From a virus, in the IMG/VR virus record IMGVR_UViG_3300032246_000693, positions 1 through 36,777 of that record: a DNA stretch of 36,777 bases. The stretch is one strand, 5' to 3'. Within the stretch, counting starts at the first letter, position 1; each line of letters opens with the position of its first letter. Shown piece after piece: positions 1,579 through 26,561 of this stretch. The position numbers and the translations under genes were made by a program. The notes below the pieces were generated by a model that was given only the letters and a program-made list of their open reading frames with translations, was not told where the DNA came from and made no database searches.

Positions 1579-2457
1579 ATGAGCGATTTTTCAAAACTTA
1601 AACGTAACAGCAATTCATTCGAGAAACTTACCAAAGCAATCGAATCGACATCAACAAATGCAGAAGCAGGTTCAAAAGATGATGACCGTTTCTGGCAACC
1701 CGAAGTAGACAAAGCAGGTAATGGTATGGCAGTGATTCGTTTTCTGCCAGCACCCGCAGTAGATGGTGATGAAGCATTACCGTGGGTTCGTTATTGGAAT
1801 CATGGTTTCCAAGGTCCTGGTGGTTGGTACATCGAGAACTCGTTGACCACTCTCAATCAAAAAGACCCTGTATCGGAGTATAACTCTGTACTGTGGAATT
1901 CGGGTATTGAAGCAAACAAAGAAATCGCACGTAAGCAGAAACGCCGTTTGACATACATCGCAAACATTCTGATTGTATCTGATCCAAAGCATCCAGAGAA
2001 CGAAGGTCAAATCAAACTGTATAAGTTTGGTAAGAAAATCTTTGACAAAATCTCTGAAGCAATGAATCCAGAGTTTGCTGATGAGACACCACTTAATCCA
2101 TTTGACTTTTGGGCAGGTGCCAACTTCAAGATCAAGATTCGTCAAGTCGAAGGTTATCGCAACTACGACAAGTCTGAGTTTGATAAACCATCTGAGTTAC
2201 TTGATGGTGATGACAAGAAGTTGGAAGCACTGTGGAAGAAAGAATACTCACTCAAAGAGTTTGTTGACCCAAGTCAGTTCAAGTCTTACGATGCATTGAA
2301 AGCAAAGTTGGATAAGGTTCTTGGTCTGGATGGTGTTGCACCAGTAACGACTAAGGCAGAAGATACTTTTGTTGCACCGAAGGCATCTGCTGCTGCACCA
2401 AACTTAGATGAAGATGAGGACTTGGAATACTTCAGGTCACTAGCAGAAAACGACTGA
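1579..2457 (+). CDS. 32: gp32-like single-stranded DNA-binding protein
   Basis: A 292-residue protein (T4: 301). The basic N-terminus (KLKRNS, residues 7-12) matches the cooperativity motif region. The core keeps family landmarks: GPGGWYIENS (79-88), YIANILIVSDP (126-136), PENEGQIKLYKFGKKIFDK (139-157) and a FWAGANFKIK strand. The C-terminus is an acidic tail (NLDEDEDLEYFRSLAEND) of the kind that in T4 contacts replication partners. It coats ssDNA during replication and repair. Unlike T4 gp32 there is no cysteine in the whole protein, so the T4 zinc site (His64, Cys77, Cys87, Cys90) cannot form. A good Shine-Dalgarno, GAGG, lies 8 bases before the ATG. The gene is followed by a strong terminator. 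Confidence 0.95.
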   Translation: MSDFSKLKRNSNSFEKLTKAIESTSTNAEAGSKDDDRFWQPEVDKAGNGMAVIRFLPAPAVDGDEALPWVRYWNHGFQGPGGWYIENSLTTLNQKDPVSEYNSVLWNSGIEANKEIARKQKRRLTYIANILIVSDPKHPENEGQIKLYKFGKKIFDKISEAMNPEFADETPLNPFDFWAGANFKIKIRQVEGYRNYDKSEFDKPSELLDGDDKKLEALWKKEYSLKEFVDPSQFKSYDALKAKLDKVLGLDGVAPVTTKAEDTFVAPKASAAAPNLDEDEDLEYFRSLAEND

Positions 2458-2485
2458 GTAAATTAACTCAGTAGTATACAAAAAG

Positions 2486-2509
2486 AACCCCACCTAGTGT
2501 GGGGTTTTT
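2486..2509. terminator. Bidirectional intrinsic terminator between gp32 and the leftward tail unit
   Basis: An 8-bp perfect stem, AACCCCAC (2486-2493) pairing with GTGGGGTT (2499-2506), closes a 5-base loop. A T-run follows on the plus strand (2505-2509). An A-run at 2481-2484 gives a T-run on the minus strand. It lies exactly between two convergent genes and can stop both transcripts. Confidence 0.92.
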
Positions 2510-2510
2510 C

Positions 2511-4481
2511 TTATGCCATTTTTCCCATATACCATTCTAGTGCATTATTATAAACATCAGCAGTTGCTAACATTGGAGCTCCTGAACCACCAGTAGAAGT
2601 GTTGATTGTTTTATTATCAATCACTGAAATAGGTGTATTCTTTTCATCTTTTAATAATCCTTCATTTGCTTTTCTATTTAATTCTTGAACTTCTTTTAAT
2701 TTTCTTTTGCTAGAATCTTCTATGTTTAATACTGGTGCTGCTGCATCCATAACTGTTTTAGCAACTGATGCTTTATCTTTACTTAATGGAGCATTTCCTG
2801 CTGCGGTTGCCTTAGATACATCACTTTGACTAGGAACTTTATTTTCATTTAAAGCATATCTACTTGGTGATAAATCATAAGCTTTTTTTGCATGTTCTGC
2901 ATATTTTGCCGCAGCATCCTTATTTGCAAATTGAAGATGTATATGTGGAGCAGTTGCTTTTCCATCCCCCATCTTTTCATATTGGACTAGATATTCATTC
3001 GGTTTTAATCCAGCACTTGTTAATTCTGCCGTTATATTGGCAACAGTATTATTAATTTCTTCTTTACTTGCATTTTTGTTTAATCCAAAGTCTGCTGCCA
3101 ATCCCATAGTGTGTAAACTACCTTGTGCTTCTTTGTGGTGAAACTTATCATTCAATCCTGTTACAGCATTGATAGTAGAACCACCTATACCTTTATTAAT
3201 AATTGCTTGAACTGCAAGGTCAACTCCTTCACGATGTTTGAATGCTGAAACATCTCCAGATGCTGATCTAAGTGGGACAATATTTCCCAAATCTTTAGTG
3301 AAAGGTTCTGCTTTAGTTGGAGTTAATGGTATAGTCATACCATTTGCCGATGCTGGAGGTGATACTGAACCAGTTATCGAAGGATTTTGGGGTCTTTCAA
3401 ATCCCATCGCATCCAGTGCTCGATTTACCAGTGCTCGATTTGCTTGATTTAATAAAAATCCAGCTTTATTTTCTTTCCCACCACCTTCTTTTTTTTCTTT
3501 CGCTAATTTACTTTGGAAAAAATCATCTGGTGCAGGTGCATCTTGTTTGAATGCTAAAGGTGTTGAGGAAGATTTATCAGTTGAAGATACTGGTTCTATC
3601 TTTTCAGTGATTACTCCACCCTTATCTTTTATTTCTTTTTCTATCCGTTCTCTTTGTTTTGGGTCAGTAACAGCATTTGGACCGTATTTTCTATACATCT
3701 CATTTGCATATTCGTCTTTTTGCTTTTGAATCGCTTCAAGACTTTCTGCACTTGGTTTGGGTATTAAGTTAGCGAGATACACTAGACCAGCAGCGAGTGC
3801 CACAAAACCTGCTGCCAATGCTGCTTCTGGTCCAAGAAGTAATCCTAGAAAACCAAGTCCCTTTCCTACGTTCGATACAATAGATAAAAATGAATCTACA
3901 GCACCTTTAATCATAGAAATAATTGGACCGATGAAATCTTGTATGGTTTCAAGTAACGTGGCAAAGAATCCCTTCTTTTCTTTTTCTTCTATCTTTTTTT
4001 CTTTGGTTGGTTTTTTTTCTTTTGTTTGATTTTGATATTGAGATTCTCTTTTTTTGGCATTCTGAAAGAACATATCATTATCATATGTTGGTTTTACACC
4101 CAATGATTTAAGTAATTTTTGTATGTTCTGTCTGGTGATATTAGTATCACGAGCCATCTGTGGTAAGACAATTGAATTCTTCGCCACTATTTTGAATTGC
4201 GATTTTAATAAATTTAAACTTCTATCCACACTGTTTAGTATATTTTCAGCATTTTCACTAAACCCTTTTGATTCATCATTTTTTAATTTTTCAGCACCAG
4301 TTTTAGCTTTATATCCACCAAGAGATGGGAACAGAGCGGTCAAAGCACTATTCTTTTTGAATAGATAATTTCGGGGGTCAATTCTTTCCTTAGCTCGTTC
4401 ACTAAAAGCAGTTTTTAATGAACTCCCAACTCCCTTACCTTGTTTTCTTTGTTCTCTGACTATATCTGTAAAAGTTGCCAT
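2511..4481 (-). CDS. Tape-measure / baseplate hub protein (gp29-like) with M15-type peptidase domain
   Basis: A 656-residue protein encoded immediately downstream of gp26 and its extension, the position of the tape measure in many tailed phages and of hub genes in T4 (26-51-27-28-29). Residues 1-60 are basic and contain KERIDPRNYLFKK. Residues 143-170 are Lys/Glu-rich. A long hydrophobic stretch at about 171-240 contains the Ala/Gly/Leu-rich FLGLLLGPEAALAAGFVALA, typical of tape-measure membrane segments. Residues about 380-535 carry a metallopeptidase-like pattern: SLHTMGLAADF with H457 and D464, and APHIHL with H513 and H515, matching the zinc ligands of M15 DD/LD-carboxypeptidase folds. 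The T4 gp29 is 590 residues and has no such domain as far as I know. It probably sets tail length and may open peptidoglycan during infection. The gp29 equivalence is by position and features, not sequence identity. Confidence 0.7.
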   Translation of the reverse strand: MATFTDIVREQRKQGKGVGSSLKTAFSERAKERIDPRNYLFKKNSALTALFPSLGGYKAKTGAEKLKNDESKGFSENAENILNSVDRSLNLLKSQFKIVAKNSIVLPQMARDTNITRQNIQKLLKSLGVKPTYDNDMFFQNAKKRESQYQNQTKEKKPTKEKKIEEKEKKGFFATLLETIQDFIGPIISMIKGAVDSFLSIVSNVGKGLGFLGLLLGPEAALAAGFVALAAGLVYLANLIPKPSAESLEAIQKQKDEYANEMYRKYGPNAVTDPKQRERIEKEIKDKGGVITEKIEPVSSTDKSSSTPLAFKQDAPAPDDFFQSKLAKEKKEGGGKENKAGFLLNQANRALVNRALDAMGFERPQNPSITGSVSPPASANGMTIPLTPTKAEPFTKDLGNIVPLRSASGDVSAFKHREGVDLAVQAIINKGIGGSTINAVTGLNDKFHHKEAQGSLHTMGLAADFGLNKNASKEEINNTVANITAELTSAGLKPNEYLVQYEKMGDGKATAPHIHLQFANKDAAAKYAEHAKKAYDLSPSRYALNENKVPSQSDVSKATAAGNAPLSKDKASVAKTVMDAAAPVLNIEDSSKRKLKEVQELNRKANEGLLKDEKNTPISVIDNKTINTSTGGSGAPMLATADVYNNALEWYMGKMA

Positions 4482-4484
4482 ATG

Positions 4485-4681
4485 TTATCTTTGTTGTTGT
4501 TTTAATTTAATTTTCTCGTTTTCTTCTTCAATATATTTTATTAGCATATTAACATAAATTGATTTTTCCCACGGCATCATACTTTCCAAATCACTTAAAC
4601 TATATTTGTGGTGTTGCATTAGTGCAAAGTTAGTTTCATAGTAATTATATAAAGTATCGTGTCGTAGGATTATTCGAAAAA
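4485..4681 (-). CDS. gp26 -1 frameshift extension (small gp51/gpT-like ORF)
   Basis: In the -1 frame relative to gp26 an open frame runs from the end of gp26 to TAA at 4485-4487. Entered by frameshifting after gp26 residue 241 it adds 64 residues (FRIILRHDTL... to KIKLKQQQR), giving a fusion of about 305 residues. The first ATG inside it, at 4617-4619, would give only 44 residues and splits a segment (YETNFALMQHHKYSLSDLE) that looks like one continuous helical domain. The C-terminal half is charged and likely coiled coil. Its stop is three bases from the tape-measure start. The arrangement equals the G/GT tail-assembly chaperone pair upstream of tape-measure genes. The protein-coding pattern is convincing; frameshift versus internal start is undecided. 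Confidence 0.72.
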
Positions 4682-5401
4682 ATTTTGGATTCCCTCCAAA
4701 ACAATTTTTTCTTTATATCCACATTTTCCACAATTAAAATCTATTTCTTTTGTAATTTTTGGAATAGTTTCAAAAAATTCTTCCAACTTTTTAAATTGTT
4801 TGCGATTCATATTTTCAATAAATTCGGTCAATTCATTTTCAGTTACATCTTTAGCATAAAATATTTCATCTGTATTGTAAATGTAATCAATGCAACTCAA
4901 TACAGTTTTCATTAGTATTTCGGTATCGGATAATCCTTTTAATTTTTCAATCAATTTAAAAGTGGGATATTTCATAACAACTCCCATCGTATCAGATAAT
5001 TCAATCTTGTTAGTGTGGTTTTTCGAAATTTCTGGTTTCACATCCAATAGATTAAACGAAACATCTACTAAGTTTCCACAAGTTTTTTCTTCTTCACCCA
5101 CATGAATTTTATTATTACATTTGTACTTTAATTCTGCCATTTCACCAATTGATCTAGCTCGTAAATTATAAAATAAAAATTCCAAATCAGACATTGGTAA
5201 ATTATCAATAACAATATCTTCCGTCAAACAACAGTTATTAACAATTTGTTTAATAGCATTTAAAGTTGAATCTTGGTCATCTGCTTCTACTGCCATTAAA
5301 AATAGTTTTTCTTCTTTAACCAAAAATGGTCTATATTGGATTTTCTTTTTCGATAGAGGTAAAATCAAATCATATATTGGTACATCAAGTTTTGGTAACA
5401 T
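4670..5401 (-). CDS. 26: gp26-like baseplate hub assembly protein
   Basis: A 243-residue protein with the pattern of the T4 baseplate protein family (gp26; T4 gp26 is 208 residues): an N-terminal LPKLDVPIYDLILPLSKKKI, then YRPFLVKEEKLFLMA (23-37). Two cysteine pairs, C95/C108 in KYKC...KTCGN and C224/C227 in FNCGKCGY, look like a zinc ribbon in two halves. In T4, gp26 is needed to build the central hub. The start ATG at 5401 has a GGAG about 7 bases upstream. The gene lies between the tube-family gene and the tape measure. Its last codons contain a slippery heptamer that could shift ribosomes into the downstream small ORF. Confidence 0.85.
   Translation of the reverse strand: MLPKLDVPIYDLILPLSKKKIQYRPFLVKEEKLFLMAVEADDQDSTLNAIKQIVNNCCLTEDIVIDNLPMSDLEFLFYNLRARSIGEMAELKYKCNNKIHVGEEEKTCGNLVDVSFNLLDVKPEISKNHTNKIELSDTMGVVMKYPTFKLIEKLKGLSDTEILMKTVLSCIDYIYNTDEIFYAKDVTENELTEFIENMNRKQFKKLEEFFETIPKITKEIDFNCGKCGYKEKIVLEGIQNFFE
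4679..4685 (-). promoter_or_regulatory. Candidate -1 ribosomal frameshift site A AAT TTT
   Basis: Read on the minus strand in the gp26 frame the codons are CAA AAT TTT TTC GAA TAA. A AAT TTT is a perfect X XXY YYZ slippery heptamer (same class as A AAU UUA of Rous sarcoma virus), placed four codons before the gp26 stop. A one-base backward slip enters the 64-codon extension ORF. I could not identify a clear downstream pseudoknot or an upstream internal Shine-Dalgarno by eye. Confidence 0.65.
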
Positions 5402-5421: not shown

Positions 5422-6057
5422 TTAAATTGTTTGTGTAAAACTTCGATAGGAAAATTGGACAGATAATCTTTGGATACCATCATCACCCCAATTTAATGGT
5501 TGGGGTGCATAACTTACTGGAAAACAATTTCTTAATATTACTCTATTAACCATTTTTTCTTCTATTGCACCACCGAACTCAAAATTATAACCCTCAGATT
5601 TGACTCCAAGTGGTCGAGTGGTTTGTTCTGTTGGCATCGTTTTTCCATCCCACGTTTCATTGAATTGTGTTATGATTATATCGGTCAAATATGCTCCCGC
5701 AGAACCATCAATTCCTCCAGGAAATTTTAAATTATTTGTGTCATCTGGAGTAATATATTCTATCCAATCATCAAAGATTTTTCTTTCATGACCTTTAATG
5801 GTACATAATAAATTCAAAGTTATTTCGTTAGCATATTGTTTGTGAATTGCCATCTTATATGCTGGACCATAAACTTTAACATCCTGTGTCGCTAAAACTT
5901 TACCTGGCAAATCTACAGTTTCACATTGTAATTGTAATGAACGTATATCCACACCAAGTCCATTCGGTACTCTTATATCAACTATAAATCTATTCGATTT
6001 TGCAAAACCTAATTTTTTATCGGCATTATGCCAAAAATTTGATGGTGAAAATGCCAT
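5422..6057 (-). CDS. Tail tube family protein (gp54/gp19-like)
   Basis: A 211-residue protein with the signature of the T4 tail-tube family: SNFWHNADKKLGFAKSNRF near the N-terminus, then LQCETVDLPGKVLATQDVKVYGP (about residues 43-65) and KHERKIFDDWIEYI-like text (KGHERKIFDDWIEY at about 108-121), followed by YLTDIIITQF. T4 gp19, the major tube protein, is 163 residues. The initiator gp54, at 320, shares the fold. Because it sits among hub and baseplate genes and not beside a sheath gene, I favour the baseplate tube-initiator role (gp54), which polymerises the first tube ring on gp48. It could be the major tube protein gp19. It overlaps the preceding gene by one base (TAATG). Confidence 0.72.
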   Translation of the reverse strand: MAFSPSNFWHNADKKLGFAKSNRFIVDIRVPNGLGVDIRSLQLQCETVDLPGKVLATQDVKVYGPAYKMAIHKQYANEITLNLLCTIKGHERKIFDDWIEYITPDDTNNLKFPGGIDGSAGAYLTDIIITQFNETWDGKTMPTEQTTRPLGVKSEGYNFEFGGAIEEKMVNRVILRNCFPVSYAPQPLNWGDDGIQRLSVQFSYRSFTQTI

Positions 6058-7126: not shown

Positions 7127-8338
7127 ATGGCAAATTCGAATAGAGATATCCTTGTCAAAGATTATGGGGTAGGTTCATCAAGTAAAATAAAAGAATTGAT
7201 GGGTGGTAAGGATTTTGGTTATAATATTATACAATATCCAGATAATCTAGGTACTGAGGGTTTTGGTAGAAGTCATTATATAATGTTTCATATTCTTCAA
7301 CAAAGAGAATCACAATATAAAACTCAAGAAGTATCGGGTGGTGAATTTTCTGCTCAGACAGAAAATTCAAGGCGTGGTTCATATGTAAATACCCCTTTTG
7401 GTTCAGTTGTAGAAGGAGCTGCTAAATTGTTTACACCCACTACTAATAGTGGAGAAAGCACTCAATCTTGGTATAATCCCCTCATCCCTCAATCTCTTAC
7501 AACAGCAGCAGACTTTGCGGGAACCGTACTTACGAGTGGATTGGGAGAAATTAAAAAACTTGGAACAAACATCGAAAAAATTGAGTTTGTAAGAACCGTC
7601 ACTAAAACACAAAATAGTATTGCACTCTATATGCCCGATACTTTAAATTTTGTGCAGGGTCAAGGATATGAAGATTTAGCCATGGGTAATAGTTTAGTCA
7701 CTGCTTTATTTGCAGGTGGTGGAGCTGTATTCGATAGTATAAACAAATTTCGTAATAGTAGTGGTGGTTCAGCCAATGCCAAAATACTTGGTGATGCATT
7801 AATTAAAAATATGTCACCGTTTGTCGTTAATGCGATAGGACAAAAGTTTGGAAGTTTTGGAAAAGCAGTAGCTGCTGCTGGTCAAGGATTTGTTACTAAT
7901 CCAATGATTGAAGTTGTATATTCTTCCCCTTCACTTAGAACCTTTAGATTCGATTTTGCATTTTATCCACAATCACAAAAAGAAGCACTAGCAGTTCAAA
8001 AAATTATTCAAACATTCCAATTTCATCAAGCACCAGAGGTTTTGAACAATGGAACAAATGGATATTTTTTAGTTCCCCCATCAGAATTTGATATTGAATT
8101 CTATTATGCAGGAACAGAAAATGTTAATATACCATCTATATCTACTTGTGTATTAACAAGTATGGATGTGGACTATGCACCAAATGGATTCACTGCTTAT
8201 GAAATTAACAATGAACCAGCAAGTTATGGTGGAACAGGTATGCCAGTGGCAATAAAAATGAGTTTAGAGTTTAAAGAAACTACTATGGTATTTAAATCAT
8301 CACGACAGTTTAATAAAGTAAAAAATCCACCAGCATAA
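7127..8338 (+). CDS. 48: gp48-like tail tube cap / baseplate protein
   Basis: A 403-residue protein (T4 gp48: 364). The N-terminal third contains FGYNIIQYPDNLG and HYIMFHILQQRESQYK. A central segment, NSIALYMPDTLNFVQGQGYE, resembles the ALYMPxT motif common to gp48 of T4-like phages. A C-terminal tube-like domain contains NPMIEVVYSSPSLRTFRFDF at about 262-281. In T4, gp48 sits on the central hub and, with gp54, starts tail-tube assembly. It is the first gene of the long rightward baseplate unit, with a late promoter upstream but only a weak Shine-Dalgarno. Between the two domains is an Ala/Gly-rich, moderately hydrophobic stretch. Confidence 0.82.
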   Translation: MANSNRDILVKDYGVGSSSKIKELMGGKDFGYNIIQYPDNLGTEGFGRSHYIMFHILQQRESQYKTQEVSGGEFSAQTENSRRGSYVNTPFGSVVEGAAKLFTPTTNSGESTQSWYNPLIPQSLTTAADFAGTVLTSGLGEIKKLGTNIEKIEFVRTVTKTQNSIALYMPDTLNFVQGQGYEDLAMGNSLVTALFAGGGAVFDSINKFRNSSGGSANAKILGDALIKNMSPFVVNAIGQKFGSFGKAVAAAGQGFVTNPMIEVVYSSPSLRTFRFDFAFYPQSQKEALAVQKIIQTFQFHQAPEVLNNGTNGYFLVPPSEFDIEFYYAGTENVNIPSISTCVLTSMDVDYAPNGFTAYEINNEPASYGGTGMPVAIKMSLEFKETTMVFKSSRQFNKVKNPPA

Positions 8339-8995: not shown

Positions 8996-10336
8996 ATGGC
9001 ACAGTTTAATTTAAAAGAATCAACTCAAGTAAAAATACGAAAAATAGATATAATATCAAATATTGGAACACTTGATGTTACTGCCATTTTTCAAGAGTTG
9101 AACATATATGATACCATTTTTTTTCCTTCTATATCTGGTAATATAGTAATACTTGATACTAATAATATTACTGGTCAAATTGATTTTAAATCTTGTTTCT
9201 TATCAGTTGAACTATCAAAAGGTGATGAAACTGATGGACCAACAATATTCAAGAAAACTTTCAGGATATACAATCAGTCTGATAGAATAATAAAAAATCC
9301 ATCATCTGAAATATATGTGTTGCATTTTATATCTCAAGAACTAATAGAATCATTAAGTTACAGTGAAAATAATAAAAAAATATGTCAATATTTTGAGGGT
9401 ACATATACTGATGCCGTAAATATTATTTTATACAATTATTTGCAAGTTCCCGATAAAAAAATTGGTATTATAGAAAGCACTAAAGGATTACATCAATTTA
9501 CAATTCCAAATTTAACTCCTTTTGATGCTATGGATTGGTTAGTAAAAAGATCAATTACATTTGAAAATCTTCCAAATTTTATGTTTTTTGAAAATAAATC
9601 TGGATATAATTTTGTTTCATTAACTTTTTTATTAAGTAGACCTTCAATTGAAACTATAAATTTTGATATTAAAAATGTTGATGATCCAAATCAAGAATTT
9701 TTAGGTGCTAGGGATGTGCAAGTAATTGAACAAAATCATTTAGGTAAAGCAATTAAAGATGGAATATTCTCTGGAACTATGATTGAGTTTGATAACTATT
9801 CTGGTTATTACAATGAGAAAACTTATGGTTTTACTGACATAACAAAAAAATTGAATAATAAAAATTCACACGGGACTTCGGTTACAAATAGAAATGGAAC
9901 TGATCTCGGTACATCTTATGCAGCAAGAACGATAACATCAATTTCTCCAGTGGGAAGACAGACGGGTCCTGTTGGTAATTTTTTAAAACAGAATGATCCA
10001 TTAACGGCAACTATAGTTGATGATACTAATAATTGGAAATTTCCAAGAAGAGCCATATTCTCTAATCTAATACAAAAAAGATTACGTATGACTGTGCCTG
10101 GAAATTTTATATTTTCATCGGGATTTAATGTTGATTTGAAAGGTTTCAATTTGTCTATGGTATCAAAGGGAGATAGTAAAGATGTTTCAACAAATGGTAA
10201 GTATATGATTATTGCTGCACGACATATGATTAAACCACAAAAACATGAAACTATATTAGAGCTGGCATCAGAATCTACAAATACTCCTTTCTCTGGTTCT
10301 GAAAATGCAGCACAACAGGAGGCAAAATTCAAATGA
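8996..10336 (+). CDS. gp27-like baseplate hub protein
   Basis: A 446-residue protein (T4 gp27: 391). The start MAQFNLKESTQVKIRKIDI leads into a beta-rich domain (INIYDTIFFPSISGNIVILD-like text at about 33-54), then helix-containing EGTYTDAVNIILYNYL (about 133-148) and NLTPFDAMDWLVKRS (about 171-185), a pattern typical of gp27/gpD-type hub proteins, where two tube-like domains alternate with lectin-like insertions. The next gene encodes the gp5 OB-fold that binds gp27 in T4, and the two overlap by ATGA. I rate this as hub protein by fold pattern and synteny; direct identity to T4 gp27 is low. Confidence 0.68.
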   Translation: MAQFNLKESTQVKIRKIDIISNIGTLDVTAIFQELNIYDTIFFPSISGNIVILDTNNITGQIDFKSCFLSVELSKGDETDGPTIFKKTFRIYNQSDRIIKNPSSEIYVLHFISQELIESLSYSENNKKICQYFEGTYTDAVNIILYNYLQVPDKKIGIIESTKGLHQFTIPNLTPFDAMDWLVKRSITFENLPNFMFFENKSGYNFVSLTFLLSRPSIETINFDIKNVDDPNQEFLGARDVQVIEQNHLGKAIKDGIFSGTMIEFDNYSGYYNEKTYGFTDITKKLNNKNSHGTSVTNRNGTDLGTSYAARTITSISPVGRQTGPVGNFLKQNDPLTATIVDDTNNWKFPRRAIFSNLIQKRLRMTVPGNFIFSSGFNVDLKGFNLSMVSKGDSKDVSTNGKYMIIAARHMIKPQKHETILELASESTNTPFSGSENAAQQEAKFK

Positions 10337-11655
10337 CAGATATGACAGATGACTATGGAAATGAATATTATGTTACAAAATGGGTTGGTGTTGTAGAAGA
10401 TAGAAAAGACCCCGCAGGAACTGGTCGTGTAAAAGTTCGAATTGTTGGAATTCATCCAGAGGACACTTACAATCTCCCAACCTCTAAATTGCCGTGGGCG
10501 CAAACTGAGATGGGTGCAAGTTCATCTCATTTTTTTAGTGGACCAAGAGAAGGTGATTGGGTAACTGGTTATTTCATAAATGGTGATACTCAGTATCCAG
10601 TAGTAACAGGTGTAACTAATGGAATCAGGTCACAACCTTTTAGAGTTCCCAATCCAAATGCTAATATTATTAGGAATGCAGTTAATACCAAACTGAGAAA
10701 TGATTCGGCACAGTTGGATTCTTTAACGAGACAATTCAATTTACTATCAGTTAAACCTAGTGGTAAAGGTTTACTTGAGATTGCCAAATTGTCTGTACAA
10801 ATAAATTTAAAAAAACAATCTGTTTTTAATTTATCTCAATTAAAAACTAATCTGGATACTAGATACAATACAAGAGTTCAATATGGATTTATTGACAATA
10901 GAAGTATCGCAGAAGTAAATGCTGGTGCGAAAGTTCCTAGTAGATGGGATAAGTATGCACCAGATTATTACGAAGGTCAACCAACAATTCCACAATATGC
11001 TAGAGGTATTGTAGTTGGTTCTGCGAATCAATACTCTGTTAGGAATAGAGCACACGTTTGTGATCTTGCACAACGAGTTAGGCATAAATTAGGTCAAGCC
11101 GCATTTGCAATTCAGGCATCCACTGCAATTAGAGAAGCAATTAAAAATTTAGTAGAAGCTTTGGGAATAAATCCAGTATCATCTTTTGTTGCAGATGTTG
11201 CAAGAAAAATTGCTGGATATTTGCGAAAGGTACTTAAAATTTTAAAGATGGTTAATAGATTTGTGAAAGATGTTATACAGCAAGTTTTGTTAATGAAAGC
11301 TATAATTGAATTCATAAAAGCATTACCTGATTATTTGAGGAAACTGTTTGATAGATGTCTGAAAGAAATATATCGTGAATTAGCTACATTTGTTTTTGAT
11401 TTAATTTCAAATGCATTTCCAGATACTGATGCTGGTGCATCTGCTACTTTTCAAGCAATCGGTGATGCAGTTAGTACGGCATCGCAAGTCATCGATGCAG
11501 CAAATGAAACTATAGCTTTAGGTAAACAATTGCAATCTGCATTGAATCCCGATACTCCAAGTGGGTTTAGTCCTGCTGAAACTGAAAGAATAATAGCATC
11601 ACAGTTTCCAGATTACAATAATATCAAAGAAAAAACACTCGGTCCAATACTATAA
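10333..11655 (+). CDS. 5: gp5 N-terminal OB-fold hub protein without lysozyme domain
   Basis: A 440-residue protein. Residues about 14-95 are the gp5 OB-fold: KWVGVVEDRKDPAGTGRVKV, then IHPED, LPWAQTEMGASSSHFFSGPR and GDWVTGYFINGDTQYPVVTG. This domain caps the gp27 trimer. In T4 it is followed by a lysozyme domain, but here residues about 105-440 are a Lys- and Ala-rich, largely helical region (VRHKLGQAAFAIQAS, then KIAGYLRKVLKILKMVNRF and so on) with no visible E-(8)-D-(5)-T lysozyme motif. The spike domain is a separate downstream gene. The helical part may extend the hub or contact the tape measure. Start overlaps the previous stop (ATGA). Confidence 0.82.
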   Translation: MTDMTDDYGNEYYVTKWVGVVEDRKDPAGTGRVKVRIVGIHPEDTYNLPTSKLPWAQTEMGASSSHFFSGPREGDWVTGYFINGDTQYPVVTGVTNGIRSQPFRVPNPNANIIRNAVNTKLRNDSAQLDSLTRQFNLLSVKPSGKGLLEIAKLSVQINLKKQSVFNLSQLKTNLDTRYNTRVQYGFIDNRSIAEVNAGAKVPSRWDKYAPDYYEGQPTIPQYARGIVVGSANQYSVRNRAHVCDLAQRVRHKLGQAAFAIQASTAIREAIKNLVEALGINPVSSFVADVARKIAGYLRKVLKILKMVNRFVKDVIQQVLLMKAIIEFIKALPDYLRKLFDRCLKEIYRELATFVFDLISNAFPDTDAGASATFQAIGDAVSTASQVIDAANETIALGKQLQSALNPDTPSGFSPAETERIIASQFPDYNNIKEKTLGPIL

Positions 11656-11663
11656 GGTAGATT

Positions 11664-12758
11664 ATGGCATCATTAGAAGAACAACTAGCAGAATATAAAG
11701 CAGCAATAGCAAAACAAATTCCTGTTGGATTGGCATCTGCTACAACTCCACAGGGGACAGCAGAAACACCAACAGCAGCAAATTTGAATGATGCTGCTAG
11801 AAATCTGAATAGGAATCTTTATAAAGCAGAAGAAGAGCTTTTGTTTCAGAATTTCCCATCTCCTTATGCTTGGGTTACTCCTCTACGTCAAATGGAACAG
11901 AGGGATGGTGGTGGAAATCAAGCTGAAGCAAAAGGCATAAATCCAGTTCACTATGGTCACATGACTGTTTTTCAGGATAAAGAATCTAAAAGTGGTGTGT
12001 ATATGTCGTCTGCTCCAGATGAAACATTCATTGCTTTAGAGCATGGTAATTCTGCATCATACATGGAAATACAAAACAATGGAGATACTGTACAGCAGAT
12101 TTATGGTAATGGGTATAGGATTGTAGCTAAGAATGAACATGTTTTGATTGAGGGATTCTGTGTTATAAAAGTTGCTGGTAACTGTCAATTAGAAGTTGAA
12201 GGTGATAGAATAGAACATGTGAAAGGTGATTACAAACTACGAGTTGATGGCAATTATGATATCACAGCAACTAAAGGATACATGCTTACCACTGCTGAAG
12301 ATGTTGACATATACGTGCATGGAACAACAAGTGCATTAACACTTCATGCACCGAATGTACCTGCTCTTACTCCTGGAATTATTTTAAATGGAAGTGCATT
12401 GGTTGAGGGTTCTCTCGATGCATCTTCTGTATCTTCTGCGGGAGCAGTAACTGCTAAACTAAGTTTGTTTGTTGGTCCTGATGGTATAGTTTGTGCGGGA
12501 GGAGCATTGATTGGATTCGCTCTTGGAGTTCCCATACCTGGATTTTTGAACGCATCATTGGAAGTGAGTGCGCCAATGGTAAAAGATATTGGTGGATATT
12601 TGTTGACCTTGAGGGGACTTTATAATTCACACAATCATTGGGCACCACATTTTGAGGGAATAACAGCCCCAACTGCAATGCAAGATGTATCTGGCGCAGG
12701 CGGTGCTCCTGCATCTTTAGGGTCAATGGCAGGTGGTCAGATGACTAGTTTTAGTTAA
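11664..12758 (+). CDS. Central tail spike (gp5C-like beta-helix needle)
   Basis: A 364-residue protein. Residues 170-201 contain four exact VxGxxxxx octapeptides (V170, V178, V186 and V194 start VAG, VEG, VKG and VDG), the repeat that forms the triple-stranded needle of T4 gp5C. The preceding region has the strand pattern GHMTVFQDKESKSGVYMSSA and IALEHGNSASYMEIQ, as in gp5/VgrG-type stems. Near the C-terminus YNSHNHWAPH has H323, H325 and H329, like the His-x-His iron site at the tips of several phage spikes. It likely pierces the outer membrane as a trimer. Encoded just after the OB-fold protein, with an AAGG Shine-Dalgarno, so the two genes together replace the C-terminal part of gp5. Confidence 0.85.
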   Translation: MASLEEQLAEYKAAIAKQIPVGLASATTPQGTAETPTAANLNDAARNLNRNLYKAEEELLFQNFPSPYAWVTPLRQMEQRDGGGNQAEAKGINPVHYGHMTVFQDKESKSGVYMSSAPDETFIALEHGNSASYMEIQNNGDTVQQIYGNGYRIVAKNEHVLIEGFCVIKVAGNCQLEVEGDRIEHVKGDYKLRVDGNYDITATKGYMLTTAEDVDIYVHGTTSALTLHAPNVPALTPGIILNGSALVEGSLDASSVSSAGAVTAKLSLFVGPDGIVCAGGALIGFALGVPIPGFLNASLEVSAPMVKDIGGYLLTLRGLYNSHNHWAPHFEGITAPTAMQDVSGAGGAPASLGSMAGGQMTSFS

Positions 12759-20402: not shown

Positions 20403-23400
20403 ATGGCTATTAATACAAATTTTAATACAGACCCCTATTATGATGATTTCGATGATGGTAAAAACTATCATCGCATACTTTTTAAACCTGGGTATGCTGT
20501 ACAGGCACGTGAACTAACTCAACAACAAACAATCCTACAAGACCAAATTAATAAGTTTGGTGATTATATTTTTCAATCTGGTTCAGTAGTTACTGGTGGT
20601 AAGAATAACTTTCAGACTGTTCAGTATATTAATATTGCTCCAACCTATGCCTCAACTGATATTGCTGCTGGTAATTTTGAAGGTAAGATTATTCAAAATT
20701 CCGCAAACACAAAACGTGCATATGTAATCAAAACATATGATCCAGTTACGGCAAATGGCCAACCAATCACTTTAATTGTCAATCAAATATTTGGTGATCC
20801 GTTTGGAAATACAGAAGTAATTTATACGGCAAATGCTGATGTTGAAGCAATTACCTACTATGCAAGTACAACTTCGAATGGTGCAACAGGTAACTGTCAA
20901 GTGTGGTCTATTACCTCTGGTGTTTATTACTATGGTGGCTACTTCATCACAACTCAAGATGCATCTATTGCCATCAACAAATATAGCACAACTGGTAATG
21001 CTTTAGTTGGTTACGATGTTACAGAAACTATTGTTAATAATAGTCAAGATACTTCGTTACTTGATCCTGCTCAAGATGCATCAAACTTCCAAGCACCAGG
21101 TGCTGACCGTTTTAATATTGAACTAACTTTAAATACTCGTCCACTTGACAGCACTGATAAAACACAATTCATTGAAATTGCTAGAGTTGTTAATGGAGAA
21201 TTGATTTCATCTGTAGAAACTCCATTATGGGGTAAGATTGAAGAAACAATTGCTCGTAGAACGTATGATGAATCGGGTGATTATATTGTTAGACAATTCG
21301 ATATTGGTTTGGATACAAATGCAAGTAATACTGCTCGGTTAGATATCACATTATCTCCTGGTAAAGCCTATGTTAAAGGTTACGAGTTTAGCACAATATC
21401 AGCAACAAAATTAACTGTTGATAAACCACGAACTAAATCAAACGTAACTAATAAGACAATAAGTTCTGGTTATGGTGCATACATCTATGCGAACAATTTC
21501 TATAATACTCTTCCGACTAATCTATATGGAACAGTAGATATTCATTGTGTTGATGCAGCGTCAGTTAATACTGGTAATACTTCTCTTTTGGCAAATACAA
21601 AAATTGGAACTGCCAAAATCAAATCGATAGCATATGATTCATCATCAAATGTATCGAATGGTGGTGCATATGTTTATTCAGTCTATTTGGCAGATGTTAA
21701 TACTGGTTCACTCTATGACACTACAACATCTAATTCTGGTGGTTATGCTATTGCTGGTGTGGGTAACACTACAACATTCACATTACCAGGATTATTTTCA
21801 TTAACAAATCAAGCATATCAGGGTGCAATAATCAGAATGACTTCTGGTCCTGGTTCTACTGATGGAACACGAAGAATTGCTTCGTATGAAGGTGCTACTC
21901 GGAATGTAGTAGTATCTACTGCTTTTTCCTCTCCTATTAATACACAATCTCGTTTTGCAATCGACTTTGATTTTGGTCAAGCAGAATCATTGGCAGTGTA
22001 TTCTGGAACTACACGTGTTGCTGGTGCGAATGTTCATGTATATTCAAAAAATATTCCAGCATTATATTCCCCAACATATATTTCAGAACCACAATTTGAA
22101 CCCTTAATTTTCGATTTAGGTGATTCGAATGTTTCTGATAATTCAACTTCATATTTTAATTATCAGTATGAGAGATTATATCAGGGAGTAACTTTATCTG
22201 CTGGTGTTACAACAGCACTTACTGTTGGTTCGGGTGAAACTCTTGTAGCAGCAACAACAACTGCTTCCAAATCTGAATACTATACGATAGTATGTACCGC
22301 AGCAGGAACTAATACTGGTCCTGATGGTGGATATAAAGCAGGACAGTTAATACCCTCAAGTTTATTTACTGTAGATACTACAGCACGAACTATCACTGTT
22401 ACTGGTGGTGGTAATATGACTGTCAATTTATATGCTACACTGAGTGCAACTAATCCAACATCAAAAACTAAAACATTTATTCGTGCTAATACTGCTGTTC
22501 AAACACAAGTAGTTGCTAATGCAGTTTTTGGTTCAGGTAATACTTCTGCATATGTGTTCATTCCACATGGACAAACTCATATTGCACAAGGACTAGTTAA
22601 TAAATCTCCTGGTGTAGATCAAACATTATATGTTGCTGATATTCATTCTATTAATGCTATTTTCGATTATAGTAATTCAGCAATTACTACAGCAAACTCT
22701 GGTTCTGCAATTAACGTAACATCACGTTATACTTTGGTCACTGGACAAAAAGATTCGTATTATGATTGGGGTGCAATCAGATTGCTTCCTGGACAAACAC
22801 CTCCTGTTGGTCCTCTTTTAGTTCGTTATAACAGATTCACATCATCGGGTGCTGGTTTCTTCAATGTGGATTCTTATACACGATTGGGTGATGGTAATTT
22901 CACATATGGTGAAATCCCACAATATAAATCGAGAACTACTGGTACAACATATTCTCTAAAAAATTCATTAGATTTTAGACCAGTTCGTTTGGATGCGATT
23001 ACCACATACTCTGCAAACAACTTTGTATTTGATGTGAACGAAACGACTACTGGACCGAAAGTTCCTTTGAGTCTTACTGATTTTGTTATAAGTTATAGTT
23101 ACTATCTACCACGTGTCGATAGAGTTGTTCTTACTACCGATAGAAAATTACAAGTGTTACCTGGCATTCCAGGAATTAATCCTGTTGCTCCAGTAGAACC
23201 TAAAGATGCAATGACTCTTTATGTTCTTAACTATCCTGCTTACTTACAATATCCATTTACGACACAGATTCAACGTCTTCGTAATAAACGATACACGATG
23301 AAAGATATCGGTGGTCTTGAAAAACGTATTGAAAACTTAGAGTATTACACATCATTATCATTGCTTGAAATAGCAACGATGGGTAAACAAGATTTGTCTA

Positions 23401-26400
23401 TTCTTGATTCACAAAATTTACCACGATTCAAGAATGGTATTGTTGTTGATTCATTTGTAGATAAATCAGTTGCTGACTTTACTGGTCGTGATTTTGCTGC
23501 TGCTATTGACGTTGTTAATAATGAAGCACGTGGTTCGTATAACATCACATCAATCGGAGTTTTCTCCAACACTGATATTGCAAATACTACAGCAGTGAAT
23601 GATGTTAATGTTGAATATAGTGGACCAATGATAACGTGTGCTTCAACAACTGAAACTTGGTTGTCACAACCATTAGCATCCAAAACAATTAATATTAATC
23701 CATTTAACTTCATCAACTATCTTGGTAAAGTGAATCTCTATCCATCTTCGGATGTTTGGAATTCGCAGACTAGAGTTGAGTCTCAAGTGGTTGATTTAAC
23801 TGGCGGCACAGCAGCAGCAGATGCCTGGTCTTCAATCCAAAGTACATCGTGGGGTGCATGGCAAACCACATGGACAGGTGTATCTGATGTTACGATTCCT
23901 GGAACTGAAAGAACAACATCCACAACACAACAAATTAGTAAAGCAGAAGCAGTTTCTAAGGGTATCGATCAATCTAATGGTAAAGGTAAGAAATCACGAT
24001 TTGATGAACAGACTCTTACAACAACTTCAGCATCGTTAGTTACTACAACTACGAATGAATCTCGTTCAGGTATTTTATCACAAATTGTTCCAACAACTTT
24101 AACCAAATCATTGGGTGATAAAGTTGTTGATGTAAGTGTTATTCCTTACATGAGATCGAAAACTGTTTTGGTTACAGGAACAGATTTTAAACCATTAACT
24201 CCATTGTATTCTTTCTTTGATAATGTTGACGTATCAAAGTATATTACTAATGTTAATCAGTTCAAGTTTGCAAATAATAACCTACAGTTCCAAACTACTA
24301 TTGGTGATTCCGAACAAGTTACAATCAAAACTTCAGATACGAATGTTACATTAGGAACTGGTTATATCATTCAAACATCCAACAATAATGGTTTCATTGT
24401 TAATATCGACACTGTTAATTCTGTTGGTACATGGACAGGATATGCAAACGTCAAAGTTGTTGGTGCTGTAACTGGTACAGTAGCATATCTTTCTAGTTGG
24501 CAGCACTTTAGTGGATTTGCTGTTTCTGCAAATAGCACAGCAATGGTATTGGATTATAATGCTGGTGGTGCATCAAATGCCACGCAAACTACTTATCAAA
24601 GTAAAACAGTTACTATTACTAGTGGTACTGGTGCAGGACAACAACGAACTATTTCCGACTACAATCCAACAACACGCACATTGTCTGTATCGACACCGTG
24701 GACTACTGTTCCTGATGCGACTTCCAACTACACTATTGGTATGCCACAGACAACGGAAGAGGGTGCAATATCAGTTGTATTCAGTATACCTGGAGATACC
24801 TTCCGTGTAGGTGAAAAACATTTTAGATTAATCGATGTTCAAACTGGATTAGTAGAATCATCGGCAACGAATGGTGATGCCACATTCTTCTCACAAGGTG
24901 TGGTACAAACAGTTCAAGAACAATCTATTTCTGTGTTTGTCCCTAATGTGGTTAGAAGCACTGTTACGGAAGAAAGAACTAGTGAAAGAACTTCAGTTAA
25001 ACAAAACTCAAGTTCTACTTCAAAACAAATTGCAACATACTATGACCCATTAGCTCAGAATTTCTTAGTGAGTGCTTCTCAGTATCCACAAGGTATGTTC
25101 TTATCAAGTGTTCGTGTATGTTTCCAAACAAAGGATGTTTCAGTTCCTGTTACGATGCAAATTAGACCGACTGTAAATGGATTTCCATCATCAGGAACAG
25201 TGTATCCATTTGCTAGTGTAACATTGACACCCGATAGAGTAAACACAGTTGCACCAAACTCAAAACCTGATTTGACTGACCCAACCAAGTACACTGAGTT
25301 TGTATTTGATGCTCCTGTATGTTTACAACCAGGTGAACACTCTATTGTATTTGTTTCTAATTCGAATTCTTATTTCTTGTATTGTGCTAAGAAAGATGAA
25401 AAGAACTTTATAGATAACAACAATATTAGTGCATTACCTTATGTTGGTTCGTTGTTTGAATCGCAAAATGGAGCAACGTGGATTCCAACACCAGCAACAT
25501 CGATGTTGTTTAGTATGCAGAAAAAAGTATTCACAACTGCTACTGCTCTTGCACATTTTGAAGCAGATACATCAACGATTGCCGCCGATACTGTATATGA
25601 CTTGGCACACTTCATGACAACTGATGTTGTTCTCGCAAACACATCAATTAATTATGAGTTTATATCACAGCAGTATACAGGCAATACTACTCACTCATAT
25701 CTACCAATAGTTCCATTTGTGGATTATCGTATGGTCGATGGATATGATCGTCGTGTTCTAAACAAAACAACTGGTAATACTACGGTTAAGATTCGTGCTA
25801 CGATGGCAACTCAAAGTAGAGATGTGTCGCCGATGATTGATAAGACACGATTGAACTGGTTGGCAGTTGAAAATAAAATTAACAATTTACCACTGACAAC
25901 TTCAGGTGTGGTTCTTTCAAGTGGTGGTTCTGGATATGCAAACTCTGCCGATGTCACTGTAACTATTTCAAATGGTGGTGGTGTCGGTGCTGCTGCTACT
26001 GCTACCGTTACTAGCAATGTAATTACTGCTGTAACTATTACATCTCCTGGAACTGGATATATAACATCACCAACGATTACACTTACTCCTGGTTCGGGTG
26101 GTGGTTCGGGTGCAGTTGTAACATACAATGGTGAAGATAAGAGAACTGGTGGTACTTCTGCGATTCGTTATTATACAAAACGAGTTAATTTGGCAGAGGG
26201 ATTTGATTCATCAGATTTGCGTGTTTATCTCACGACTTATTTGCCTCCACTTTCTGGCATCCAAGTTTATTATAAAGTTCTTTCGAGTGGTGATGCTGAA
26301 ACATTTGAAGATAAAAACTGGGCTCCAATGACACAGTTGAACAATATCACATTTACTTCTGCGAATGAGAGTGATTATCGTGAATTGACATTTGCTCCAG

Positions 26401-26561
26401 GTATTAATAATGTTGCGAATAATTACATCAGTTATACTTCTGGAACAAGTTCATTCAATGACTTTGGTACTTTTGCAATCAAAGTTGTTCTTTACGGTCA
26501 AAGTACAGTTGATGTTCCACGATTCAAAGAACTTCGTGTAATTGCTTTACCTAGAGGTTAA
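20403..26561 (+). CDS. Giant DUF4815-type baseplate/tail structural protein
   Basis: 2052 residues, the largest complete gene in the window. The N-terminus (FNTDPYYDDFDDGKNYHRILFKPGYAVQARELTQQQTILQDQINKFGDYIF) has the pattern of DUF4815 structural proteins found after gp8 in marine T4-like phages. A long beta-rich body follows. Segments at about 1000-1010 (LEKRIENLEYYTSLSLLE at about 970-987) suggest a helical connection. Residues 1130-1250 are Ser/Thr-rich, and 1833-1912 carry two GxGY beta repeats. T4 has gp9, gp10, gp11 and gp12 at this position, so it may form the outer wedge and fibre attachment, but that role is inferred. Shine-Dalgarno AAAGG lies 10 bases upstream. Confidence 0.8.
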   Translation: MAINTNFNTDPYYDDFDDGKNYHRILFKPGYAVQARELTQQQTILQDQINKFGDYIFQSGSVVTGGKNNFQTVQYINIAPTYASTDIAAGNFEGKIIQNSANTKRAYVIKTYDPVTANGQPITLIVNQIFGDPFGNTEVIYTANADVEAITYYASTTSNGATGNCQVWSITSGVYYYGGYFITTQDASIAINKYSTTGNALVGYDVTETIVNNSQDTSLLDPAQDASNFQAPGADRFNIELTLNTRPLDSTDKTQFIEIARVVNGELISSVETPLWGKIEETIARRTYDESGDYIVRQFDIGLDTNASNTARLDITLSPGKAYVKGYEFSTISATKLTVDKPRTKSNVTNKTISSGYGAYIYANNFYNTLPTNLYGTVDIHCVDAASVNTGNTSLLANTKIGTAKIKSIAYDSSSNVSNGGAYVYSVYLADVNTGSLYDTTTSNSGGYAIAGVGNTTTFTLPGLFSLTNQAYQGAIIRMTSGPGSTDGTRRIASYEGATRNVVVSTAFSSPINTQSRFAIDFDFGQAESLAVYSGTTRVAGANVHVYSKNIPALYSPTYISEPQFEPLIFDLGDSNVSDNSTSYFNYQYERLYQGVTLSAGVTTALTVGSGETLVAATTTASKSEYYTIVCTAAGTNTGPDGGYKAGQLIPSSLFTVDTTARTITVTGGGNMTVNLYATLSATNPTSKTKTFIRANTAVQTQVVANAVFGSGNTSAYVFIPHGQTHIAQGLVNKSPGVDQTLYVADIHSINAIFDYSNSAITTANSGSAINVTSRYTLVTGQKDSYYDWGAIRLLPGQTPPVGPLLVRYNRFTSSGAGFFNVDSYTRLGDGNFTYGEIPQYKSRTTGTTYSLKNSLDFRPVRLDAITTYSANNFVFDVNETTTGPKVPLSLTDFVISYSYYLPRVDRVVLTTDRKLQVLPGIPGINPVAPVEPKDAMTLYVLNYPAYLQYPFTTQIQRLRNKRYTMKDIGGLEKRIENLEYYTSLSLLEIATMGKQDLSILDSQNLPRFKNGIVVDSFVDKSVADFTGRDFAAAIDVVNNEARGSYNITSIGVFSNTDIANTTAVNDVNVEYSGPMITCASTTETWLSQPLASKTININPFNFINYLGKVNLYPSSDVWNSQTRVESQVVDLTGGTAAADAWSSIQSTSWGAWQTTWTGVSDVTIPGTERTTSTTQQISKAEAVSKGIDQSNGKGKKSRFDEQTLTTTSASLVTTTTNESRSGILSQIVPTTLTKSLGDKVVDVSVIPYMRSKTVLVTGTDFKPLTPLYSFFDNVDVSKYITNVNQFKFANNNLQFQTTIGDSEQVTIKTSDTNVTLGTGYIIQTSNNNGFIVNIDTVNSVGTWTGYANVKVVGAVTGTVAYLSSWQHFSGFAVSANSTAMVLDYNAGGASNATQTTYQSKTVTITSGTGAGQQRTISDYNPTTRTLSVSTPWTTVPDATSNYTIGMPQTTEEGAISVVFSIPGDTFRVGEKHFRLIDVQTGLVESSATNGDATFFSQGVVQTVQEQSISVFVPNVVRSTVTEERTSERTSVKQNSSSTSKQIATYYDPLAQNFLVSASQYPQGMFLSSVRVCFQTKDVSVPVTMQIRPTVNGFPSSGTVYPFASVTLTPDRVNTVAPNSKPDLTDPTKYTEFVFDAPVCLQPGEHSIVFVSNSNSYFLYCAKKDEKNFIDNNNISALPYVGSLFESQNGATWIPTPATSMLFSMQKKVFTTATALAHFEADTSTIAADTVYDLAHFMTTDVVLANTSINYEFISQQYTGNTTHSYLPIVPFVDYRMVDGYDRRVLNKTTGNTTVKIRATMATQSRDVSPMIDKTRLNWLAVENKINNLPLTTSGVVLSSGGSGYANSADVTVTISNGGGVGAAATATVTSNVITAVTITSPGTGYITSPTITLTPGSGGGSGAVVTYNGEDKRTGGTSAIRYYTKRVNLAEGFDSSDLRVYLTTYLPPLSGIQVYYKVLSSGDAETFEDKNWAPMTQLNNITFTSANESDYRELTFAPGINNVANNYISYTSGTSSFNDFGTFAIKVVLYGQSTVDVPRFKELRVIALPRG

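Follow-up and report, generated by a model that had tools for sequence, protein, structure and literature searches.

A probable -1 ribosomal frameshift fuses a gp26-like tail assembly chaperone to a gp51-like extension in a T4-like phage contig

The gp26-like gene and the open frame beyond its stop codon

The window analyzed here, comprising all 36,777 nt of the IMG/VR record IMGVR_UViG_3300032246_000693, carries a gp26-like gene lying between a tail-tube family gene and a gene encoding a 656-aa protein (Table 1). The gp26 ORF matched PF12322 over the full length of the profile (positions 2-219 of 219; E=2.1e-59, 201.3 bits, gathering score 24.5), and a profile search matched it to phrog_150 with E=4.1e-63. 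The AlphaFold2 model of gp26 had a pLDDT of 93.3, and the highest probability among the PDB matches listed by Foldseek corresponded to the HK97 tail assembly chaperone 2ob9 (0.82, TM 0.51 on target), with a non-significant E=0.7. The PDB fold search with a gp51 model returned no match, to a chaperone or otherwise.

Table 1. Location of the genes and sequence elements discussed in the text.
Feature	Position	Strand	Remarks
Tail-tube family gene, upstream	5422..6057	minus	phrog_45
gp26-like gene, short form (TAC-N), 243 aa	4670..5401	minus	PF12322, phrog_150; TAA at 4672-4670
SD-like GGAGGG	4692..4697	minus	9 nt 5' of U_UUU_UUC; probable stimulator
A_AAU_UUU heptamer, overlapping U_UUU_UUC	4679..4685	minus	Present in window, not conserved
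U_UUU_UUC heptamer, probable frameshift site	4676..4682	minus	Conserved across relatives
-1 frame extension (TAC-C, gp51-like C-terminal part)	4485..4676	minus	63 codons + stop
656-aa protein in tape-measure position	2511..4481	minus	Position and hydropathy

The 3' end of the gp26 frame reads ATC CAA AAT TTT TTC GAA TAA, in which two slippery heptamers overlap. Slippage on either A_AAT_TTT or T_TTT_TTC would yield an identical 305-aa product (...IQNFFRIILR...), and the predicted fused protein contains ...GIQNFFRIILRHDTLYNYYETNFALMQHHKYSLSDLESMMPWEKSIYVNMLIKYIEEENEKIKLKQQQR across the slip site. No stop interrupts the -1 frame from 4712 onward; starting with CGA (4676), 63 codons lead to a TAA at 4487-4485. 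The preliminary description of this locus, which proposed a probable -1 frameshift at the end of gp26, placed A_AAT_TTT four codons before the stop. The heptamer is present, but it ends two codons before the stop; the spacing of three bases between the -1 ORF and the ATG that opens the following gene (4481) stands. So does the proposal that the ORF lacks a good start of its own: the earliest ATG, GTG or TTG in this frame is ATG 4619, which is preceded by 19 extension codons, and no Shine-Dalgarno (SD) sequence was found before it in the window. The extension matched positions 58-118 of 121 of phrog_634, the C-terminal half of a gp51-family profile (E=8.3e-27, 94.8 bits), and a profile search also aligned it to positions 234-278 of 282 of phrog_150.

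Canonical heptamers occur in frame 72 times in the approximately 10,800 codons of this AT-rich window, and 4 of its 31 genes have one within six codons of the stop, so that the heptamer alone is weak evidence. These counts would also suit a chance or decayed frame, in which AT-rich composition alone accounts for the heptamer and no extension is produced. This reading is contradicted by the homology of the extension to phrog_634, and by its deep conservation and the codon-level selection described below, which leave it a negligible probability. The case for a putative frameshift hence rests on the conservation and homology of the 63-codon -1 frame, and not on the heptamer itself. Elsewhere in the window, the gp48-like gene at 7127-8338 on the plus strand (phrog_230) has an in-frame A_AAA_AAT three codons before its stop, followed by 32 open -1 codons; this is probably a chance occurrence in an AT-rich genome.

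The gene downstream of the extension had been labeled a tape measure in the preliminary description. Its position fits, and its product has a hydrophobic segment at about residues 198-241, from which a tape-measure role is inferred; no Pfam or PHROG family matched the 656-aa protein, and no similarity was found to the N-terminal part of T4 gp29. Residues 445-515, approximately, hold an H..GLAADFG...HIH-like motif that recalls M15/VanY peptidases, with no Pfam match, and the neighboring gene in S-CREM1 is annotated as an M15 metallopeptidase. Two further features were observed on the plus strand. The gp5 hub/lysozyme family is seemingly split between 10333-11655 (phrog_430 positions 18-111 of 868) and 11664-12758 (positions 365-456), and 20403-26561, which adjoins baseplate wedge genes, encodes a 2052-aa protein matching phrog_358 (1134 bits), a large family without an assigned function.

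Conservation of the slippery site and reading of the extension

The comparative analysis used 80 IMG/VR loci picked by gp26 protein similarity, blind to the slip site. The pattern xxT TTT TTY was present 0-8 codons 5' of the gp26 stop in 80/80 of these loci, with a homologous -1 frame in every one whose contig reaches far enough, and in 84/84 after adding the window, S-CREM1, P-SSM2 and Pelagibacter phage Mosig. KVP40-like, Emmerichvirinae, Caulobacter and Pelagibacter phages likewise combine the -1 relation with a slippery heptamer.

Codon usage was assessed in the 73 genes remaining after dereplication at 80% identity, with expectations derived from the codon use of the same genes. The codon before Phe-Phe was AGT, TCT, GAT, AAT or GCT (Ser, Asp, Asn, Ala), its third base being T in 73/73 genes against 45.5 expected (log10 p -15). 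The first Phe of the pair was TTT in all 73 genes, with a background of 73%. Because genes are treated as independent, the p-values of these two comparisons are overstated. A set reduced to 58 genes with less than 60% identity still gave the all-TTT pattern a nominal p=4e-10; since these genes were chosen by having the slip site, this supports the size of the effect and not its universality.

The A_AAU_UUU heptamer that the preliminary description took as the slip site is not conserved, with AAT preceding Phe-Phe in 13/135 dereplicated genes and AGT, TCT, GAT, GCT, GGT or CGT in the rest. It was rejected as a general functional heptamer, the preceding codon being mostly AGT, TCT or GAT, and U_UUU_UUY was taken as the conserved site because it alone is universal, being present in all 80 loci. 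In this form, the alignment of relatives bears out both the heptamer and the -1 relation proposed earlier.

The same T run could in principle promote transcriptional slippage, with RNA polymerase adding a U and thereby placing some mRNAs in the -1 frame. All relatives do have a run of 6-9 T, but it consists of exactly six T followed by C in 102/135 dereplicated genes, and six T is short for slippage by bacterial polymerases. Moreover, the X_XXY_YYZ register and an SD-like element at ribosomal spacing fit ribosomal slippage, and we assign the transcriptional mechanism a very low probability.

A different arrangement was observed in 25 Ackermannviridae-type genes, which keep the -1 relation with GAR ATT TTC, GTT TTT or CTT TTY sites and not U_UUU_UUY. 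The loci with altered sites are L087, L090, L091, L096 and L222-L242. In some Ackermannviridae, a TAATG overlap makes reinitiation possible.

Several features make it very probable that ribosomes read the extension as a continuation of gp26. Beyond the gp26 stop, substitutions track the codon positions of the -1 frame (pairwise differences 0.29/0.21/0.49), and extension residues Leu8 and Phe16 were invariant in 71/71 relatives. In 19 of these 71 relatives, and likewise in the window by direct reading, the -1 frame has no ATG, GTG or TTG 5' of Phe16. One locus (L051) has no possible start ahead of the PWER motif, and in Aeromonas phage P19 (Ceceduovirus, L089:3196-3364) the first possible start is extension codon 31.

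These data bear directly on an alternative reading, in which the extension stands as a small gene of its own (gp51), initiated separately and perhaps coupled to the translation of gp26. Most cyanophage records annotate the extension separately, as a 'baseplate hub assembly catalyst', and some ATG lies between the slip site and extension codon 20 in 66/71 relatives. In addition, a start lies on or close to the gp26 stop in S-CRM01, Cr30 and some Ackermannviridae; for S-CRM01 and Cr30 it is an ATG a few codons at most from the slip site, so that these phages could also use reinitiation. Against an independent gene, there is no universal start column, the commonest (column 19) holding an ATG in only 53/71 relatives, and an SD sequence precedes this candidate ATG in 2% of cases, compared with 54% for gp26 starts. 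In the 19 relatives mentioned above, conservation of the frame reaches 5' of every possible start, and the slippery heptamer is both selected at the codon level and present throughout the gp26-similarity set. The preliminary description had named relatives combining both ORFs with no slippery site and a strong start as the case against frameshifting; with the site in all 80 loci and so few SD sequences, the comparison came out in favor of it. Taken with the structure of T4 gp51 presented below, we consider an independent gp51 very improbable, and favor the reading of the extension as the C-terminal part of a frameshifted gp26.

Two genes for two products in the T4 lineage

T4 gp51 comprises a complete PF12322 domain (3.9e-52) followed by the extension in a single frame, which argues further against the extension being an independent gene. 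Both T4 gene 26 and gene 51 are homologous to the gp26 domain, and the C-terminus of gp51 is homologous to the extension; hhalign profile comparison of gp26 and gp51 gave 97.7%. Vladimirov, Gautam and Davidson are said to have named 26 and 51 as the two T4 chaperone genes, and the PF12322 and extension matches in T4 gp51 agree with this pair. The T4 lineage obtains the same two products from two genes, 26 (short) and its paralogue 51 (in-frame fusion). T4 differs from the window in that two divergent genes without a slippery site make the two forms. The preliminary description had set the gpG/gpGT logic of lambda-like phages against the separate genes of T4, and this comparison holds, with gp26 as the short form and gp51 as the in-frame fused paralogue.

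Across 256 loci, 178 genes presented a -1 extension with a slippery site, 49 were fused long genes and 48 were short genes with neither extension nor slip site. The slippery site was absent from all 49 fused and all 48 short T4-type genes, where the same Phe-Phe is mostly encoded by TTC TTT. In the window, a single gp26-domain match was obtained in the 36.8-kb record and no second, in-frame fused gp26-like gene was found; with its slippery site and single gp26-domain gene, the window departs from the T4-type split arrangement.

In a maximum-likelihood tree of gp26, the short, long, frameshift and Ackermann-type groups require the minimum number of changes, each state occupying one branch. A single change separates the frameshift and T4-type states, on an unrooted tree whose groups are joined by long branches. 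KVP40-like phage D479 and Ceceduovirus P19 fall on the frameshift side. One contig (L202) carries tandem gp26-like genes, the first (1733-2426) with neither slip site nor extension and the second (2380-3142) with both, a possible parallel duplication.

Stimulatory signals, proposed mechanism and relation to known systems

At the SD-like site upstream of the heptamer, relatives use GAG in 77/104 cases against a background of 26% (p=4e-24), and the Leu codon preceding this GAG ends in G in 58/100, against 28% (p=7e-10). This codon choice indicates that the SD-like sequence is under codon-level selection, and its 9-nt spacing approximates that of dnaX-type -1 stimulators. T4 short genes were tried as an SD-negative control (53% vs 72%) and discarded, because the 3' end of T4 gene 26 seems to overlap with the ribosome site of gene 25.

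Folding of the RNA 3' of the slip site, suggested earlier as a check for a pseudoknot, predicted no downstream stem in the window by MFE (-0.4 kcal/mol). In relatives, the region is somewhat more folded than controls, with mean z of -1.15 to -1.34 over 70-100 nt against -0.2 to -0.6. A clear stem of 9-11 pairs lies 5 nt past the heptamer in about 10 of 71 relatives, of P-SSM2 type; its compensatory changes are few (mainly CG to TA and TA to GC) and also fall on codons.

Sequence comparison establishes the slippery site, the open frame, their conservation, the codon-level selection, the missing usable internal start and the paralogy. We regard it as highly probable that one T4-like chaperone gene yields a short (TAC-N) and a long (TAC-NC) form through a -1 ribosomal slip. 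In the proposed mechanism, gp26 would be the short tail assembly chaperone, TAC-N, and a minority of ribosomes would slip at AAU UUU UUC on the same mRNA. The SD-like GGAGGG, located some 9 nt 5' of the slip, probably restrains the ribosome while the two Phe tRNAs move back one base on U_UUU_UUC, and 63 further codons would then be read in the -1 frame to give the 305-aa TAC-NC, which shares its start with the short form. The short:long ratio would be set by the efficiency of the slip. Both forms may coat the tape-measure/hub protein and recruit the tail-tube protein, in the manner of lambda gpG/gpGT.

A broader proposal, for which we see about even chances, is that exchangeable, dnaX-like stimulators tune frameshifting in T4-like chaperones. 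In most marine lineages the stimulator would be the SD-like GGAGGG, at a distance of 9 nt upstream of U_UUU_UUC, joined in a P-SSM2-type subset by a 10-11 bp stem that begins 5 nt past the heptamer. The T4 lineage would have swapped the whole signal once for a gene duplication, its short:long ratio being fixed by separate expression.

The lambda slippery heptamer is G_GGA_AAG. As in lambda gpG/gpGT, the -1 slip would take place near the end of the short chaperone and the extension stops just before the next large gene; the window differs from lambda in its U_UUU_UUC heptamer and in representing a contractile, T4-like phage. Tail assembly chaperones of T4-like phages have been identified by Vladimirov, Gautam and Davidson (Virology 2022;566:9-15, pmid 34826709). 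As relayed in PMC10885494, that study describes one short and one long fused chaperone gene in some T4-like phages and, as relayed in a 2025 paper (PMC12846349), poly-T signals for -1 frameshifting within the TAC-N genes of T4-like phages. To the extent conveyed by these sources, the described systems resemble the window in their short and long chaperones and poly-T slippery site; the window differs in being an unclassified metagenomic contig. Since lambda-style frameshifting is on record for several groups of T4-like phages and the general idea dates to 2022, the window is a further, well-supported example of a reported mechanism. Three results may be new: the quantification of the SD-like element, the partial stem 3' of the heptamer and the tree with a single change. 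The SD-like and stem statistics provide directly testable stimulators.

Older reviews describe the G/GT frameshift as conserved in long-tailed phages 'except T4' (PMC5009743). The probable frameshift described here removes this apparent exception, and the data agree with the 2022 report in pointing to T4 as an alternative solution inside a frameshifting group. Sullivan et al. (2010, PMC3037559) observed that gp51 of cyanophages and vibriophages is missing the N-terminal ~200 residues present in T4 gp51. Their 'short gp51' corresponds to the same -1 ORF, treated there as a reduced separate gene and read here as the putative frameshift extension of gp26. Many cyanophage and vibriophage records would accordingly contain truncated 'gp51' entries, whose proper annotation would be as the C-terminus of gp26 reached by frameshifting. 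In P19 the entry is missing, the conserved -1 extension being wholly unannotated in GenBank.
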